31,046 bases of DNA from a virus. The translations under genes were made by a program, and so were the position numbers. The stretch lies in IMG/VR virus record IMGVR_UViG_3300021139_000080, positions 1-31,046 of that record. One strand, written 5' to 3'. The notes beneath the pieces are model-generated. The model had not been told where the DNA came from, made no database searches, and saw nothing but the letters and a program-made list of their open reading frames with translations. Shown piece by piece: positions 11,146-30,716 of the stretch. Every line of letters starts with the position of its first letter. The stretch's first letter is position 1.

Positions 11146-11804
11146 TATTTATCACTCTTTAAATAATTATCCATTTTATCTAAAATTTGTTTTTGTTGTT
11201 TAGAATAATGTTTATTCATTTCAGAATCAGGAAATTGTTTAAATAAATAACCACGAAGATAAGTAGGTTTACCTGTTTGTTCTAACCATTGTTTGTAAGG
11301 ACGGTCATCACCACGTTCATGGTCTTCTCTATAAAACTCACGAAGAGAAGCCTTTGCTTCAGGGGTCTTTAATGTTTGTTCAAATTGTTTATTAAGTTTA
11401 TACAATTCTGGGTGGTTTTCTTTATCATTAACAAGATTATGAGAAACAATGTCACCAGCTATATCAGTAGGTTTAACATTTTTATCTAATACTTGAATTA
11501 CATGTTTATCTTCTGGGACACCTTCTGGTCTTTTAAACTTTTCATCTCCAGGGTCTCCTGGTTGCCAATGTTCTAATTTTCTAAAATCATCTTTAGAAGT
11601 AGGCTGGGACTCAACATAACCATAGTCTAAACCTTTTAATTTAGGGTACATATCTTGAGCTTGTTGTAATAGATTTTTTTGAGGCTCTAAAGTAGATTGT
11701 CCTGTAGTATCTCCCATTGGATTAGTAGAAGGAGTATAGCCACCTACAGAAGGAGTAGAGCTTTGCTGACCCATTAATCCTTGTAATAGTAAGCTATAAT
11801 CCAT
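11145..11804 (-). CDS. Hypothetical phage protein, possibly virion-associated
   Basis: This 219-residue protein starts with a low-complexity Ser/Thr/Gly/Gln region (residues 1-45), followed by a charged helical body. Near residues 160-190 it reads DDRPYKQWLEQTGKPTYLRG and then YLFKQFPD. I recall QW...GxPxYLRGYxFxQ(W/F) in other phage proteins encoded near internal virion proteins, without a known role. It has no catalytic motif or membrane segment. It sits between the ATP-grasp enzyme and the fibre-like protein, with TAATG at both ends. Confidence 0.7.
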   Translation of the reverse strand: MDYSLLLQGLMGQQSSTPSVGGYTPSTNPMGDTTGQSTLEPQKNLLQQAQDMYPKLKGLDYGYVESQPTSKDDFRKLEHWQPGDPGDEKFKRPEGVPEDKHVIQVLDKNVKPTDIAGDIVSHNLVNDKENHPELYKLNKQFEQTLKTPEAKASLREFYREDHERGDDRPYKQWLEQTGKPTYLRGYLFKQFPDSEMNKHYSKQQKQILDKMDNYLKSDK

Positions 11805-13141
11805 TATCTTCCGTCCTCTACTTCAGTAGCATAACCACAGCCTTGTAAGTCATCTAAGCACTTTTGTACTTTTTCACCAATGTCTGTACGATAAGCAATA
11901 GAGTTAGGAATCTCAATTTTCTTTTTAATCTTGCCGTAAACTGACTCACGAGCTTTCTCAATAGAGTCACCTAGTCCTACTACTGTGCAGACATAGTCGC
12001 CAGCAGTTACAAACATAGGGACATTTTCTTTGAGTTCTCCGTCAACCATTGCAGGACCTTTGCCCCACTGCACTTCACAAAGATGTACATCATTGATAGC
12101 ATCTTCCATTGTCAAGCCCCAGATAGGATAACCAGAGTTTTCCTTTTTAGTAATATGGCTAAATGGATAGTCAGGAATTGTTACAACAACACCGCAAGCA
12201 ATCTTGTCTGAAGTCTTTAAAGTATCTTTACCATCAATCATGTCAAGCATCCACTGAGCAGGGTCACCCTTGTGCAAAGACATCTGAATGTTAAACAAAG
12301 GCCAGCCTGGACGAGTAGTAAACTCTAAAGGCCATGCTTTACCATTCTTATCAATAATACAGTTAACGTCAATGTAGCCTGTGTAGCCAATACCATGAAG
12401 CATGTCTTCTAATGGTTTAAGCATCTGGTCAGCTAGTTTAGAGTCTTTGGTGTAGCGAACAATAGTACCTTGCTCACCAGTAGTAACACCAAGTTCGCCA
12501 TCCATGAGCTTCTTGTGTTCCCAGGACTCACAAAAGTTCTTAGAAAAACCACCAGCACCGAACCAGCCACCTACACCAAACTCAATACCTGGACGGAACT
12601 CTTGAAGAATAAACTTACCTTTAAAGGAGTTCTTTTTCTTCCAGCGAGTTAACATGTATAGCATGTCAGCAGCAGACTTAGCTACATAGGATAAAGTCTT
12701 GTCTCCGTCACCAATAGGCTTAGACACAAAGCGACGTGGGTTCTCTTTGACGTATGCAATAGCATCGTCATAGTTGTCAAAGGTTTGACTAGGAATGGTT
12801 TCAATACCAGCCTTGTTAAGAATCTTCTCACCGTAGTCACGCTCTTGTTCCCAGCGAGTACCTTCTAGGTTCGCACCAAAGATGGGATAACCTTGGTCAC
12901 GATAACGCTCTAGACCATAAATATAATAAATGTTATCTGTAACAAAGATTAAGTCAGCCCACTTCATGTGGTCTTCCCACGAGCTAACTCGTTTAATTAG
13001 ACCACCATCGCCTACTTCAGCACGTGAGCCATCTTTGTTATGACGTAAAAATAACTTAACTTCATGCCCAGCTTCTTGACTTCGTAGTCCAAAGGAAAGA
13101 CCGCAACCGCAGCCTGATGGGTCAATAATTAAAATCTTCAT
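11804..13141 (-). CDS. PurD-like ATP-grasp ligase
   Basis: This 445-residue protein aligns by eye with phosphoribosylamine-glycine ligase (PurD) along its whole length. It has an N-terminal nucleotide-binding-like domain (MKILIIDPSGCG), an ATP-grasp core with Lys in FVSKPIGDGDKTLSYV, the acceptor strand LQEFRPGIEFGVGGW, and EHKKLMDGELGVTTGEQG in place of the PurD DHKRxxDGDxGPNTGGMG. Next come DKNGKAWPLEFTTRPGWP with the metal Glu, and a C-terminal domain with VGLGDSIEKARESVYGKI and YRTDIGEK. PurD joins glycine to phosphoribosylamine. The altered GGMG motif (GEQG) and the setting among virion genes make purine synthesis doubtful, so it may ligate an amino acid to another acceptor. It overlaps the internal virion gene by ATGA. 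Confidence 0.85.
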   Translation of the reverse strand: MKILIIDPSGCGCGLSFGLRSQEAGHEVKLFLRHNKDGSRAEVGDGGLIKRVSSWEDHMKWADLIFVTDNIYYIYGLERYRDQGYPIFGANLEGTRWEQERDYGEKILNKAGIETIPSQTFDNYDDAIAYVKENPRRFVSKPIGDGDKTLSYVAKSAADMLYMLTRWKKKNSFKGKFILQEFRPGIEFGVGGWFGAGGFSKNFCESWEHKKLMDGELGVTTGEQGTIVRYTKDSKLADQMLKPLEDMLHGIGYTGYIDVNCIIDKNGKAWPLEFTTRPGWPLFNIQMSLHKGDPAQWMLDMIDGKDTLKTSDKIACGVVVTIPDYPFSHITKKENSGYPIWGLTMEDAINDVHLCEVQWGKGPAMVDGELKENVPMFVTAGDYVCTVVGLGDSIEKARESVYGKIKKKIEIPNSIAYRTDIGEKVQKCLDDLQGCGYATEVEDGR

Positions 13142-16475: not shown

Positions 16476-17138
16476 TTAGTCTCCCATTCCGCCAGTACCG
16501 CCAAATGCTTGATTCCACGTAGCAGCAGCAGGGGCAGCAGCAGGGCTGGCTACAGTACCTGTTGGGTCATAAGATAATCCTGTGTATCCTCCAGTCATTC
16601 CAGAACCCATTCCTGAGTATCCAAAGTTTTGTGAAGCAGAACCACCAAATAAACCACCAAGAGTACTTAAACCACTCAATGCTGTACCTGTTCCTTGTAG
16701 CATACGATTTTGAGCAGCACTAGCGGCTTGTTGTTGTGCAAGACCTGCAGCAGCAGGAGACTGTGAAGCACCAGAAAGCTGCATTAAATTAGCAAGTTGT
16801 GAGTTGTAGTAAGAAGCAAAAGTGTTTTGTCCTTGAGACTGCAACGCATTAGCTTCAGCACCAGACTGGAGCATACCAGTAGCGGCAGCACCTCGTTGGG
16901 ACTGTTGTAAACCTGCTTGTAGTTGTTGCTGGTAACCAGGCTGTGACATAGCCAATGAAGGGTTATTCATTAAATCGTTTAATTGGGTAGCAGCTTGACC
17001 ACGATACTGACCATAAGGGTCATAAGTACCTGAGCTAGTGCTACCACCTCCACCACCGCCTAAACCTAAAGGGTTTCCTGTGAGAGCGTTTACACCTACT
17101 GTTAAGCCTACTACTGAAGCTGCAACTGAAGCTGACAT
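16476..17138 (-). CDS. Small ejection protein (P22 gp7-like), Gln/Gly/Ala-rich
   Basis: This 220-residue protein has a hydrophobic start (SASVAASVVGLTVGVNALTG), a six-Gly run near residue 28, a helical Gln-rich centre (YQQQLQAGLQQSQRGAAATG, MLQSGAEANALQSQGQ, LAQQQAASAAQNRMLQGTG) and a Gly/Tyr-rich end. Composition and order, directly ahead of the two larger ejection proteins, match small DNA-injection proteins of P22-type podoviruses. It has no enzymatic motif. The first 28 bases of the gene overlap the end of the cupin-SET gene, whose C-terminal residues LCQLQLQLQ are simply the out-of-frame reading of this start. Confidence 0.7.
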   Translation of the reverse strand: MSASVAASVVGLTVGVNALTGNPLGLGGGGGGSTSSGTYDPYGQYRGQAATQLNDLMNNPSLAMSQPGYQQQLQAGLQQSQRGAAATGMLQSGAEANALQSQGQNTFASYYNSQLANLMQLSGASQSPAAAGLAQQQAASAAQNRMLQGTGTALSGLSTLGGLFGGSASQNFGYSGMGSGMTGGYTGLSYDPTGTVASPAAAPAAATWNQAFGGTGGMGD

Positions 17139-17977
17139 AATGTTGTTTCCTTATAAAGGCTTAGAGCCTGTCTATAATCAATGGTAATTTCTTCACCTAA
17201 TAAGCCTCCACGCATTCCTGATATTGGTTTAGAGGCTACCAAGTCAATATCTTCATTATCTCGTAAAACAAAAACTGCATTTGGATTCTTGGAATGGTTT
17301 GTATATCTACCAGCAGGAGTTCTTTTATCTCCTAACCTAGCTGGAGCAATAACTTCGCCAGCTTGGATGTTTCCTGTAGCAAACAAACCTTTACCTTCAA
17401 TCTTGGAATCAGACACCATTGCTTTGTAGCTTCCTTGTGGAAAAGGTATCTGGTCTCCTTCATATTCTGATATTTGCCGAACAAGATTTAAATTTAACTT
17501 ATACTCTGCCATTGCTTTTTCAAAGTCCTGAACATCTGCTGAGTAATCGTAAGTTAATAATTTATCTTGTTCTTTAAGATGTTCTTCAAGAAATTCATTA
17601 TCTTCAAATAACATTTTTTCTAATTTAGCAACATCTGTTTCTTCTGTAGCATAAATGTTTTGAAAAGTCATCTCTTCTAAAACATAAGCTACTTTACGTC
17701 CTGCTGAAGCTATAAAAGACTTAGGAGCACTGATTTCAACTTTGTTTCCATCAGGTGCTACAAATATCATCTTACCTGTTAACATTACACAAAGGTGAGG
17801 ATGCTTATGAAAGTGTCCTACAACTAAAGTGCCAGGACCATAAGTTACTTCTCTAATATATAAACCAGGACCAAAGTGATGAACAACAGGACAATCAGCT
17901 TGTTCTTGTTTTAGCAGTTCCTTTGTTAAGTTATCAATCTTATTTTCTAAGATTTCTGTAGGTAACTGCTGATTCAT
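17111..17977 (-). CDS. Cupin-SET domain fusion protein (candidate lysine methyltransferase)
   Basis: This 288-residue protein joins two domains. Residues about 37-112 form a cupin barrel, with VGHFHKHPHLCVMLTGKM giving His57, His59 and His61 as possible metal ligands. Residues about 184-270 form a SET domain: SKIEGKGLFATGNIQAGEVI, then RYTNHSKNPNAVF with the NHS-x-x-PN pseudoknot motif, and GEEITIDYR with the catalytic-region Tyr. SET enzymes methylate lysines using S-adenosylmethionine. No pre- or post-SET cysteines are seen. An acidic helical linker (115-165) connects the domains. The start at 17977 has GGAG nearby. It lies between the P22 gp10-like and ejection-protein genes, so a virion protein or an early host protein is a plausible substrate. 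That is inference. Confidence 0.85.
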   Translation of the reverse strand: MNQQLPTEILENKIDNLTKELLKQEQADCPVVHHFGPGLYIREVTYGPGTLVVGHFHKHPHLCVMLTGKMIFVAPDGNKVEISAPKSFIASAGRKVAYVLEEMTFQNIYATEETDVAKLEKMLFEDNEFLEEHLKEQDKLLTYDYSADVQDFEKAMAEYKLNLNLVRQISEYEGDQIPFPQGSYKAMVSDSKIEGKGLFATGNIQAGEVIAPARLGDKRTPAGRYTNHSKNPNAVFVLRDNEDIDLVASKPISGMRGGLLGEEITIDYRQALSLYKETTLCQLQLQLQ

Positions 17978-26413: not shown

Positions 26414-26692
26414 TTATCCTACTGTAATAGTGTTTATAACAAAACCGTCTACTAATCTATTAGAACTATAAATGGTAATGTATTGATTTTGAGGCTCTGG
26501 TCTTGTCCAAGGAGGTGCTTGATAGTCTGCTACGCCTCGTACAAAGTCCTGTGGCTGTCTCGGCTCCCAATCGGCAGGACAAACTTTCAGTCCATCCCAT
26601 CTCTGGCGTAAATCGCTTGCTCGCATTTTCCTTCCGCAAGCATCGCAGAGTACTGCCCAATCACCTCTGTCATAGCGACTAAAATAGCTCAT
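26414..26692 (-). CDS. Conserved phage zinc-knuckle protein (CDACGRK...VCPADWEPRQPQDFVRG)
   Basis: This 92-residue protein contains CDACGRK (Cys16, Cys19) and VCPADWEPRQPQDFVRGVAD (Cys38), and then APPWTRPEP. I recognise the pattern CDxCGxxxxxSxLRxRWDGLxVCxxDWExRxPQDFVRG as a small protein common in podoviral and siphoviral structural regions. A three-Cys plus Asp/His metal site is likely. The role is unknown; its place between the fibre-tail adaptor and the spike suggests tail assembly. It overlaps its upstream neighbour by ATGA. Confidence 0.8.
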   Translation of the reverse strand: MSYFSRYDRGDWAVLCDACGRKMRASDLRQRWDGLKVCPADWEPRQPQDFVRGVADYQAPPWTRPEPQNQYITIYSSNRLVDGFVINTITVG

Positions 26693-27000
26693 ACTTGTGT
26701 AGCGTCGTAAACAGTTAAATCACCAACACCCACATAGGTGTTAGTCAAAGAAGTAGTAATCGTCATCTCAAGGCGATAAGTTACTTCAGCTAGTCCACCA
26801 ATAACCCTTTGAGACGCTGTCTTATTAACAATGACTGCCGCACCTAAAAGAAGATTAGATGGGTTAGGGTCTACACCGTTCATAACAACAATAGCACAAG
26901 TTGCTGTTAGGATAGTTTCACCAGCAGCTAAAACCTGCGTAAAGTCAAAAGTGAATAACTCACTTTCGGTGGTAATCTTGTAGGAAAATGACTCAGCCAT
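26689..27000 (-). CDS. Phage fibre-tail adaptor-like protein
   Basis: This 103-residue beta-rich protein reads FTFDFTQVLAAGETILTATC, then VDPNPSNLLLGAAVI and GLAEVTYRLEMTITTSLTNT. This matches small structural proteins annotated as fibre-tail adaptors: a strand-rich domain with a DF(S/T)xVLAxGE start and an xxYRLxxxxxTS strand near the end. It would link spikes or fibres to the tail. A promoter candidate lies just upstream (27019-27047), inside the end of the repeat-protein gene. The start overlaps that gene by TAATG. Confidence 0.75.
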   Translation of the reverse strand: MAESFSYKITTESELFTFDFTQVLAAGETILTATCAIVVMNGVDPNPSNLLLGAAVIVNKTASQRVIGGLAEVTYRLEMTITTSLTNTYVGVGDLTVYDATQV

Positions 27001-28409
27001 TAAAGTTTCCGATATAACATTATAACACGATTTTTAACAAAAGACAAGGTTTTTTCAGCCTTTTTGACTAAAATATCTCTGTCCTTAACTATAACTGCTG
27101 TAAGCTGTTTAGGCCCAACAATAAAAGTATACTTAGCTACTGCTCCAAACTTCTGTACAATACCAGGGTAAAGACTAACTATTGCATAGCTTATTACTGT
27201 AAGTACTTTTTCAATAAACTTATTAATCTTAACTGTAGTGGTTACTGTAGCAGCTAATAGTTTATTGGGCAATCTTTTTAAACTAACAACATTATTAACA
27301 CCTAAAGCTAATATTACACTTGTAGTAATTCTACGGATTATTGTAACAATCGTAGTTACTGCATAAGTTATTATTTTAGCTATTGCCCTAGGTATAGTAA
27401 TTGTTGTGGTTACTAAGGCAGTTAATATTTTAAGTACACTGTTTTTAATTGAAGCTGTATTTGATACTGTAGCTAATAAAGTCTTAAAACGACCAAAGTT
27501 AATACGAGCTGTGCTGGTTACATTGACTGATAAAGCAACCAAGTGGTTAGCTATTTCAGTAATAACAACAATTACAGTCTCTACTGCCGATACTAACAAC
27601 TTACCTATTAAACGAGCTATTGTAGCCGTGCTAGTGACTGTAGCTGTTAATGTCTTACTTGAATAACGAGCTATTGTGGCTGTGCTAGTAACTACTAAAG
27701 CCATTATCTTAGCAATAGCTTTTTTGATACTTACTGTGCTAGTAACATTGTACGACAATGTTTTAAATAAACTAAGTATTCTAGATATTGTTGCAGCACT
27801 AGTAGACAGTACTAAAATAAGCTTATTAATTAGTTTAGTTATACTAGCTGTAGAGCTAACTGTTGCAGTTATAAACTTAGATAACTGCCTAACAATATTA
27901 ATAGTGCTAGTTACTGCTACGCTTAAACTCTTAGGTATAGCTTTAATCAAAGTAGCTGTACTTGTTACAGCATAACTAAGGGTTTTAGATAAAGACAACA
28001 ATCTACTTAAGGTTGCTGTTGATGTTACGTTAATAGTAAACGCAACTAAGTGCATTGCTGATTCTGTTATAACTACTAGGACATTGTCCACAATAGTAGT
28101 CATTAATTTACTGATTGCTCTTCTAATACTTACAGTGCTTGTTGAGGTTACACTCAATGCTTTTAATATTGTAAGCTTGTAAGCAATACTTACTGCATTT
28201 GAAACACTAACTGATAAAGTTCTAAGAAGATTTAAAACTTTAGATATACTAGCTGTAGAAATTACAGCTAATAAAATAATTTTAGATATATTTAAAAACT
28301 TAGAAATGGAACTAGTACTCGTAGAAGTAACACTTAACGAGGGAGTTAATGTGATATTATCTCCGTCATTAATTGCTACTCTATCTATACTAGAACCATT
28401 AATTGCCAT
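27000..28409 (-). CDS. Tandem-repeat structural protein, 18-20-residue units, unknown function
   Basis: This 469-residue protein is built almost entirely of tandem repeats (residues about 27-405) with the consensus VTSTATIxRxIxKxLxxx: a Thr/Ser/Val strand followed by a basic amphipathic stretch. About 18 units of mostly 18, sometimes 20, residues can be counted. Units at residues 87 and 258 each carry a 20-residue extra segment (VDNVLVVITESAMHLVAF and VETVIVVITEIANHLVAL), so a larger block of 171 residues was probably duplicated. The protein has almost no Asp or Glu and is rich in Lys, Arg, Ile, Leu, Val, Thr and Ser. The N-terminal 25 residues and the C-terminal 65 are not repeated. Its position between two small tail proteins suggests a virion filament, sheath or membrane-active part. 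I do not recognise a named family. Confidence 0.85.
   Translation of the reverse strand: MAINGSSIDRVAINDGDNITLTPSLSVTSTSTSSISKFLNISKIILLAVISTASISKVLNLLRTLSVSVSNAVSIAYKLTILKALSVTSTSTVSIRRAISKLMTTIVDNVLVVITESAMHLVAFTINVTSTATLSRLLSLSKTLSYAVTSTATLIKAIPKSLSVAVTSTINIVRQLSKFITATVSSTASITKLINKLILVLSTSAATISRILSLFKTLSYNVTSTVSIKKAIAKIMALVVTSTATIARYSSKTLTATVTSTATIARLIGKLLVSAVETVIVVITEIANHLVALSVNVTSTARINFGRFKTLLATVSNTASIKNSVLKILTALVTTTITIPRAIAKIITYAVTTIVTIIRRITTSVILALGVNNVVSLKRLPNKLLAATVTTTVKINKFIEKVLTVISYAIVSLYPGIVQKFGAVAKYTFIVGPKQLTAVIVKDRDILVKKAEKTLSFVKNRVIMLYRKL
27019..27047 (-). promoter_or_regulatory. Sigma70-type promoter candidate before the tail-fibre genes
   Basis: On the minus strand, TTGTCT (27042-27047), a 17-base spacer and TATAAT (27019-27024) form a good host-type promoter, with TG one base before the -10 (TGTTATAAT). 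It lies in the last codons of the repeat-protein gene and would start transcription just before the adaptor gene at 27000. An AT-rich coding end can produce such a match by chance. Confidence 0.5.
27195..28331 (-). repeat. Tandem protein-coding repeat, about 54-base period
   Basis: These bases encode the tandem units of the 469-residue protein. The commonest spacing between VTSTxxI blocks is 18 codons (54 bases), for example at residues 148, 166 and 184, at 222, 240 and 258, and at 297, 315, 333 and 351. Recurrent strings such as gtgctagt and tgtagctg (on the + strand) mark the unit starts. The units have diverged at DNA level, so the array is old or under selection at protein level. The opposite strand is also open here (27406-27975) as a by-product. 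Confidence 0.85.
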
Positions 28410-28777
28410 TAACTAAATTGTACTTTAAAAGTAAATTGGATGGAATCGCCATTGTTCAATGGGATGCCACTAAAGTCACCTTTTACAAACAAGTTACCAG
28501 AAGTAGAAGCATCAAACAAACCAGCATTGGTGATTGTCTCACTTGTGCCAGCAGTCTGTGTACCTACAACTTGGAATGTGTCGTTTGTCGTACTTGTTGT
28601 TACTTGTGAAGTAGTGCCTGAAACACGTGGCAATACTTCTGTAAACAAAGTTGTATCTGTTGCTGCCGTCGTACCTGCACCTGTACCCCAACCAATGTAT
28701 TTAGGTTGAGTAGCCGCACCACCATTAAGGTAGTTGGTTACGATGGCTTTCCCAGTATTAACTAAGAGTGTAGCCAT
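28409..28777 (-). CDS. Conserved phage tail/virion protein (VNTGKAIVTN...WGTGAGT family)
   Basis: This 122-residue beta-rich protein has LLVNTGKAIVTNYLNG, then YIGWGTGAGTTAATDTTLF, QVVGTQTAGTSETITNAGLF and LFVKGDFSG. I recognise this pattern in small phage virion proteins often labelled tail-fibre or structural proteins; the ITNAGLFD and KGDFS strings are characteristic. The exact role is not known to me. GGAG nine bases upstream supports the ATG at 28777. It overlaps the repeat-protein start by TAATG. Confidence 0.75.
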   Translation of the reverse strand: MATLLVNTGKAIVTNYLNGGAATQPKYIGWGTGAGTTAATDTTLFTEVLPRVSGTTSQVTTSTTNDTFQVVGTQTAGTSETITNAGLFDASTSGNLFVKGDFSGIPLNNGDSIQFTFKVQFS

Positions 28778-30377: not shown

Positions 30378-30386
30378 GAGTTAATT
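30360..30386. promoter_or_regulatory. Inverted repeat overlapping the -35 box
   Basis: AATTAACTC (30360-30368) and GAGTTAATT (30378-30386) form a perfect nine-base inverted repeat around a nine-base centre that contains the -35 element. This is where a repressor or activator dimer could bind. It could also act as a weak hairpin at the end of the endonuclease VII-like gene, whose stop codon (30381-30383) lies inside the right arm, but the stem is AT-rich and only TTT follows. Confidence 0.5.
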
Positions 30387-30716
30387 AAGTAGATAGTTGA
30401 TTGCTTCTGCAAGGAATTTAGGATTATCTCTAAAGTTACCTAAACCTTGATTACACCCCATACACAACAAACCACGAACTTTCTTAGTAGTATGGCAATG
30501 GTCTACTGCCAGATTTCTAGGTTGTTTCGTTCTGTTATCTATGACTGTTTCAAAGTTTTTGCATATCATACAAACACCGTTTTGCTTTTCTAACATTTCG
30601 TTGTATTGTTCTAAAGTAATGCCAAAGCTTTTCTTTAAATCAGTACTTCGTACTCTGTCAGGATGTTTTAAGCGGTATTGCTTTTGATAAGCAGCAGCTT
30701 TAGCCTTTTTATCCAT
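30381..30716 (-). CDS. Endonuclease VII-type HNH endonuclease
   Basis: This 111-residue protein shows the endonuclease VII fold of the His-Me family: zinc pairs Cys49/Cys52 (CMIC) and Cys85/Cys88 (CMGC), the DHCH motif at 72-75 with the catalytic His, and CNQGLGNFRDNP with Asn94. T4 endonuclease VII resolves branched DNA before packaging, but many small phage copies are free-standing mobile endonucleases. Its placement between the capsid gene and the next virion gene, rather than among the replication genes, favours a mobile origin. The basic N-terminus (KKAKAAAYQKQYRLKHPDR) likely binds DNA. Confidence 0.9.
   Translation of the reverse strand: MDKKAKAAAYQKQYRLKHPDRVRSTDLKKSFGITLEQYNEMLEKQNGVCMICKNFETVIDNRTKQPRNLAVDHCHTTKKVRGLLCMGCNQGLGNFRDNPKFLAEAINYLLN

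Follow-up and report, generated by a model that had tools for sequence, protein, structure and literature searches.

A candidate rope protein of beaded phage fibres, encoded between Gp80-like and Gp77-like genes

Beaded fibres in GP4 and its relatives

In GP4-type fiber I, five fibres are carried on a 15-fold adaptor ring. The GP4 structure paper of Zheng et al. from 2023 reportedly describes five fibres, in each of which an elongated rope protein joins five Gp80 dimers, and a rope that links beads in this way is said to have been reported for this one phage structure. PDB entry 8jou holds 10 Gp80 and 3 Gp77 chains, with none among its chains resembling the rope, and a search of the PDB with five Burkholderia-type ropes as queries returned only a chance match and no rope chain. 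One structure has made this kind of fibre known; what is new here, as far as the searches show, is the repeat code, the variation in length and the hypothesis of a ruler. Beaded fibres are also found in the Anabaena myophage A-1(L), where the neck fibre proteins gp82-gp81-gp80 form five fibres on a pentadecameric neck ring (PMC10966104).

In the phages JC1, BcepIL02, Itty13 and POI1126 a Gp80-like bead gene is followed by a gene for a repeat protein and then by a small gene in the adaptor position, for which the match to the Gp77 profile is shown for JC1 only. In BcepMigl the bead is likewise followed by the repeat protein. PHROG 19041, annotated 'virion structural protein', matches the ropes of JC1, BcepIL02, BcepMigl and Itty13. 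A beta-type repeat with a period of 20-21 residues is present in the ropes of BcepIL02, BcepMigl, Itty13 and POI1126, and is weaker in JC1, while an N-terminal LN/IN motif in the GP4-like ropes resembles that of the protein described below. The shared gene order, period, N-terminal motif and annotations would suggest that the middle gene of the GP4-like cassette most likely codes for the rope. In phages whose bead is approximately 65% identical to that of GP4, the ropes are 284-285 aa long and have about 11 strands (counted by eye), against the 10 Gp80 beads of 8jou.

The rope of GP4 is presumably a virion component, and the middle repeat protein is annotated as virion-associated in BcepIL02 (gp56) and BcepMigl (gp57), which argues against its being a fibre assembly factor or chaperone that is not kept in the virion. 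That explanation can draw on JC1, in whose virions the bead (gp53) and the adaptor (gp55) were detected and from whose list of virion proteins the rope homologue, gp54, is absent (PMC9144972). The absence gives no support for a rope, and a protein that is unusual and present in one or a few copies per fibre could escape detection; a role confined to assembly is considered improbable.

The candidate rope and its neighbours in the window

The window is the whole of a 31,046 nt stretch of viral DNA (IMG/VR record IMGVR_UViG_3300021139_000080). On its minus strand, a repeat protein of 469 aa, the candidate rope (27000-28409), is encoded between a Gp80-like chain-fibre subunit of 122 aa, the bead (28409-28777), and a Gp77-like fibre-tail adaptor of 103 aa (26689-27000). 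The upstream bead gene matches Pfam family Gp80, 'Podophage GP4 fiber I protein' (PF23140, E 1.3e-8), and the downstream gene matches Gp77 (PF23148, E 2.9e-9), both above the curated cut-off. The position between a virion protein and a fibre-tail adaptor, as read in the first-pass annotation of this DNA, is confirmed.

A profile of 19 diverse bead sequences, that of the window included, matches GP4 fiber I (8jou_a) at 2.9e-43. The AlphaFold2 model of the bead (pLDDT 78) has 8jou_a at rank 2 in Foldseek (E 6e-3), and its alignment to 8jou_a by VIA-align covers 106 residues with an rmsd of 3.3 and a Z of 7.6, which is tied with other phage beta proteins. A weak match of the bead fold (Z 4.8) drew attention to the garland of phage 7-7-1, and the annotation of the genome region examined offered no lead to a repeat protein. 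Wider relatives of the bead, in Sporosarcina, Methylophilales and Mycobacterium phages among others, often have some other gene than a rope after them, so that beads form a wider family than ropes.

The bead–rope–adaptor cassette is conserved at more than 50 loci. The bead, the rope and the adaptor were run separately as queries, and as many contigs are close relatives the counts that follow are not independent. A rope is downstream in 47 of the 52 bead-retrieved viral loci with enough sequence; among rope-retrieved loci the bead is upstream in 45/53 and the adaptor adjacent in 53/58; and in 60 of 63 adaptor-retrieved loci the rope is no more than 100 bp away. At some loci there are other fibre genes between the bead and the rope, with rope and adaptor still adjacent. 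This place in a conserved virion fibre cassette agrees with the probable structural role first proposed for the repeat protein.

TAATG stop/start overlaps couple the rope gene to both neighbours, the adaptor start codon overlapping the rope stop in this way. Codon differences are mostly at position 3 in five of six pairs of rope homologues, the exception being locus L007 against L059. These two features indicate that the rope gene is under constraint and, by all indirect signs, translated.

Further downstream are tail spikes, fibres and a phage stabilisation protein. Since only a 31 kb fragment of a virus record makes up the window, it is this gene content that the assignment to podophages is based on. 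The fibre is most likely a flexible side fibre of a short-tailed phage, in which the rope would run through a row of bead proteins.

Three other minus-strand genes of the window may be mentioned. At 11804-13141, on the structural-gene strand, there is a PurD/GARS-like ATP-grasp protein with no PHROG match (PF01071, 5e-7; PF02843, 1.1e-7, below its cut-off). The protein at 17111-17977 has an N-terminal half matching short tail fibre PHROGs and a C-terminal SET domain (PF00856, 1.5e-7), an odd pairing for a virion gene cluster. An endonuclease VII homologue (PF02945, 8e-25) is upstream of the structural genes, at 30381-30716.

The candidate rope starts with an N-terminal peptide, MAINGSSIDRVAINDGDN... 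(residues 1-22, 28344-28409), probably its distal end on the motif counts and fusions given below. This is followed by 21 units, mostly of 18 or 20 residues (residues 23-418, 27156-28343), and by a segment of short strands and basic residues (residues 419-469, 27003-27155) that is the probable adaptor anchor, on its correlation with the adaptor. The 18-residue period first seen in this 469-residue ORF is clear, with z = 9.3 when residues 21-400 are compared with themselves by BLOSUM autocorrelation; 500 shuffles gave no value above 4.5 at any lag. Tandem repeats are thus present as described, in larger number than the approximately 18 counted at first: profile segmentation identifies 20 units in residues 23-418 and one divergent unit in a 39-residue gap, with a mean of 0.8 units in the shuffled protein. 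The consensus unit of the family is K-T-L-S-V-x-S-T-S-T-V-T-I-x-K-x-I-x, an alternating, strand-like pattern of beta type, in keeping with the earlier suggestion of one extended strand per unit.

Two units (...VVITE...) are atypical and slightly acidic, at residues 102-121 (LMTTIVDNVLVVITESAMHL, 28047-28106) and 270-290 (KLLVSAVETVIVVITEIANHL, 27540-27602). Two such units had been recognized in the first-pass annotation, placed at residues 87 and 258 and taken to mark a duplication of 171 residues; their VVITE motifs are at residues 112 and 281, a spacing of 169. The higher-order pattern is captured better by a single longer spacer (20 or 21) at about every fourth unit, or approximately 74 residues (autocorrelation z = 5.7 at lag 74 and 5.6 at lag 149). 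Across the family, the atypical unit type is most often placed seven units ahead of the array end. A DNA tandem repeat search found no tandem array at the DNA level in the rope gene, which means that the repeat units are old and conserved at the protein level.

Acidic residues are indeed almost absent (6 Asp and 5 Glu, 11/469) and the net charge is +43. With its high content of Ile, Leu, Val and Thr together with Lys and Arg, and a maximal 19-residue hydropathy of 2.03, a protein of this composition might instead be membrane-active or ejected, inserting in the host envelope; insertion in membranes was suggested at first. Only 18 of 451 hydropathy windows exceed 1.6, however, and K or R predominates at positions 1 and 15 of the unit (66% and 76%). 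A series of uncharged hydrophobic segments of about 19 residues, as for an integral membrane protein or pore, was not found in the rope. The alternation is that of strands and not of helices, and the gene has a fixed place between those for the bead and the fibre-tail adaptor, all of which makes membrane insertion very improbable.

The AlphaFold2 model of the rope monomer, a prediction proposed at first pass, has strands throughout and a mean pLDDT of 56, with no confident core from 15 aligned homologues; strands were obtained, a confident fold was not. Such strands and the regular beta-type repeats would also suit a fibre that stands by itself, as a homo-oligomeric beta-solenoid or filament needing no beads to fold. 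That no core is predicted with confidence, that no solenoid match to the rope was found in Pfam, PHROGs or NCBIfam, and that the rope gene is tightly linked to the bead gene all speak against a solenoid or filament of this kind, which is unlikely; a string that passes through the adjacent bead protein is the more probable reading. Low confidence for the lone rope is expected of a chain that folds on its partner, which fits the threaded string without proving it. The best match in a fold search with the rope model was an uncharacterised phage protein, set aside for its low confidence.

The rope family and its length variation

The sequence of the candidate rope had no match in Pfam, PHROGs (to E 0.1), NCBIfam, PADLOC or PDB sequences, and no named family was known for it at first pass. 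Relatives are nevertheless plentiful, forming 58 rope clusters, and are still unnamed: no Pfam or NCBIfam family covers the rope, and only the Burkholderia-phage form has a PHROG, which is without a specific function. The window protein is most likely, on its repeats and gene context, a member of a widespread, unnamed family that forms the string of beaded phage fibres. A pattern search of prokaryote genomes for the host gave 23 matches, none of them a relative.

Comparison of unit number between relatives, as had been proposed, gives a range of about 8 to 36 across the 58 clusters. Single spacings in the family are 18 or 20, and therefore even, in 581 of 626 cases, which would hold the two faces of an uninterrupted strand in register. 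A longer spacer tends to recur at every fourth position; relative to shuffled spacer order, z is 8.1 for a distance of 4 units and 5.2 for 8 units, these scores being inflated by shared ancestry. Many ropes end, whatever their total, with the same seven spacings, which from the N-terminal side are 21-18-18-18-20-18-18, which would suggest that length varies mainly on the N-terminal side.

Ropes start with a short peptide (MAINGSSI...IN or MFGKQPFSS...) except in L198, L085 and L003, which have a large domain there. Of 76 rope N-termini, 36 contain a motif of the window type, which is present in 5.7% of other ORFs; among named GP4-like phages six of seven ropes have it. In three of the four fusions to a large domain the domain is N-terminal; the extra domain of L238 is C-terminal, which is against a simple rule that the N-terminus is distal. 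At the other end, similarity of the last 60 aa tracks that of the adaptor (rho 0.64, permutation maximum 0.12, 51 loci), a correlation confounded by the adjacency of the rope C-terminus and the adaptor gene, whereas rho is 0.06 for the N-terminal 24 residues at the same number of loci.

Some of these genes have been missed or annotated otherwise in deposited genomes. An ORF of 998 residues in MW202615.1 (L003:4716-7712) combines an N-terminal domain (approximately 310 residues) with about 30 near-perfect 18-residue rope units, where the deposited annotation has a minus-strand CDS (UOF79353.1) instead. The rope gene of Agrobacterium phage Atu_ph08 (L099:4411-4923), between the bead and the gene in the adaptor position, is unannotated, an overlapping minus-strand CDS having been annotated in its place. 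In L198:369-4001 and L085:2078-4282 an adhesin-like N-terminal domain of MA-YWVGG type (approximately 500-660 residues) is fused to a rope part of about 26 and about 10 units, respectively; in L040 a protein with a start of the same type is encoded separately, after the bead gene.

Proposed fibre and comparison with known systems

The repeat protein is, with a probability of roughly 0.7, the rope of a chain-like collar fibre, of the same kind as GP4 fiber I. From the genes and their repeats it can be inferred that a single rope chain would be present in each fibre of the virion, its C-terminal segment anchored to the ring-forming Gp77-like adaptor at the tail vertex, and that it would run outwards through the beads as a nearly continuous beta strand. 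Each unit of 18-20 residues would bind roughly one Gp80-like bead subunit, to which it would probably add a beta strand. The N-terminus would be at or near the distal tip; in some relatives it carries a large adhesin-like domain.

If each unit docks about one bead subunit, the number of units would set the number of beads and so the length of the fibre. The N-terminal peptide and the C-terminal segment are conserved in the family while unit number varies widely, and the fact that related phages differ mainly in repeat number suggests that the rope may set fibre length. This ruler function, with one unit per Gp80 subunit, is put forward more tentatively than the rope itself, at slightly less than even odds. 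The strongest rival is that the protein holds the beads as a rope or anchor and is no ruler, its repeats giving flexibility and avidity and bead number being independent of the units. Among phages with such a repeat protein, bead counts are not known to exist for any other than GP4. Unit totals are odd in some rope clusters and even in others, so that strict pairing with bead dimers is not established, and this too would suit a rope that does not measure. The regular spacing, the conserved ends and the variable interior are what would be expected of a ruler, and the approximately 11 strands for 10 beads in GP4-like phages also favour one; a rope without this function is accordingly judged rather unlikely.

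The rope loci supply a gene family, a repeat code, a probable anchored end and natural length variants, and the last of these make it testable whether repeat number sets bead number. Were it to do so, the rope would act as a molecular ruler of a new sort, strand-like and situated outside the tail tube. Gain and loss of units, with swaps of N-terminal tips that include adhesin-like domains, would then vary the reach of the fibre and its receptor-binding tip. The family also gives a function to proteins that are called hypothetical, or were missed, in deposited genomes.

The closest described system is GP4 fiber I, with which the window shares the gene order seen in GP4-like phages, homologous bead and adaptor families, and a long extended partner protein encoded between the two. 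Compared with the GP4-type rope, the window protein has units of 18 rather than 20-21 residues, a composition of Val, Ile, Thr and Lys rather than one rich in Gly and Ala, 21 units rather than approximately 11, and no sequence match over the repeats, and what it has in common with the Burkholderia-phage ropes is no more than the N-terminal peptide, the period and the position. PHROG 19041 is its positional counterpart and has the N-terminal LN/IN motif, a period of about 20 residues and a basic C-terminal segment, but its profile misses the window protein.

The fibres of A-1(L) are likewise beaded, but each is a head-to-tail chain of trimeric beads for which no rope is described (PMC10966104). 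They were for this reason set aside as a model, and the naming of their gp80 like the Gp80 of GP4 is coincidence only. Phage tail tape measure proteins are mostly helical and are found inside the tail tube. The likeness to these is one of analogy only, in that the length of a protein sets the length of another assembly, whereas the rope would be an external, strand-like string.
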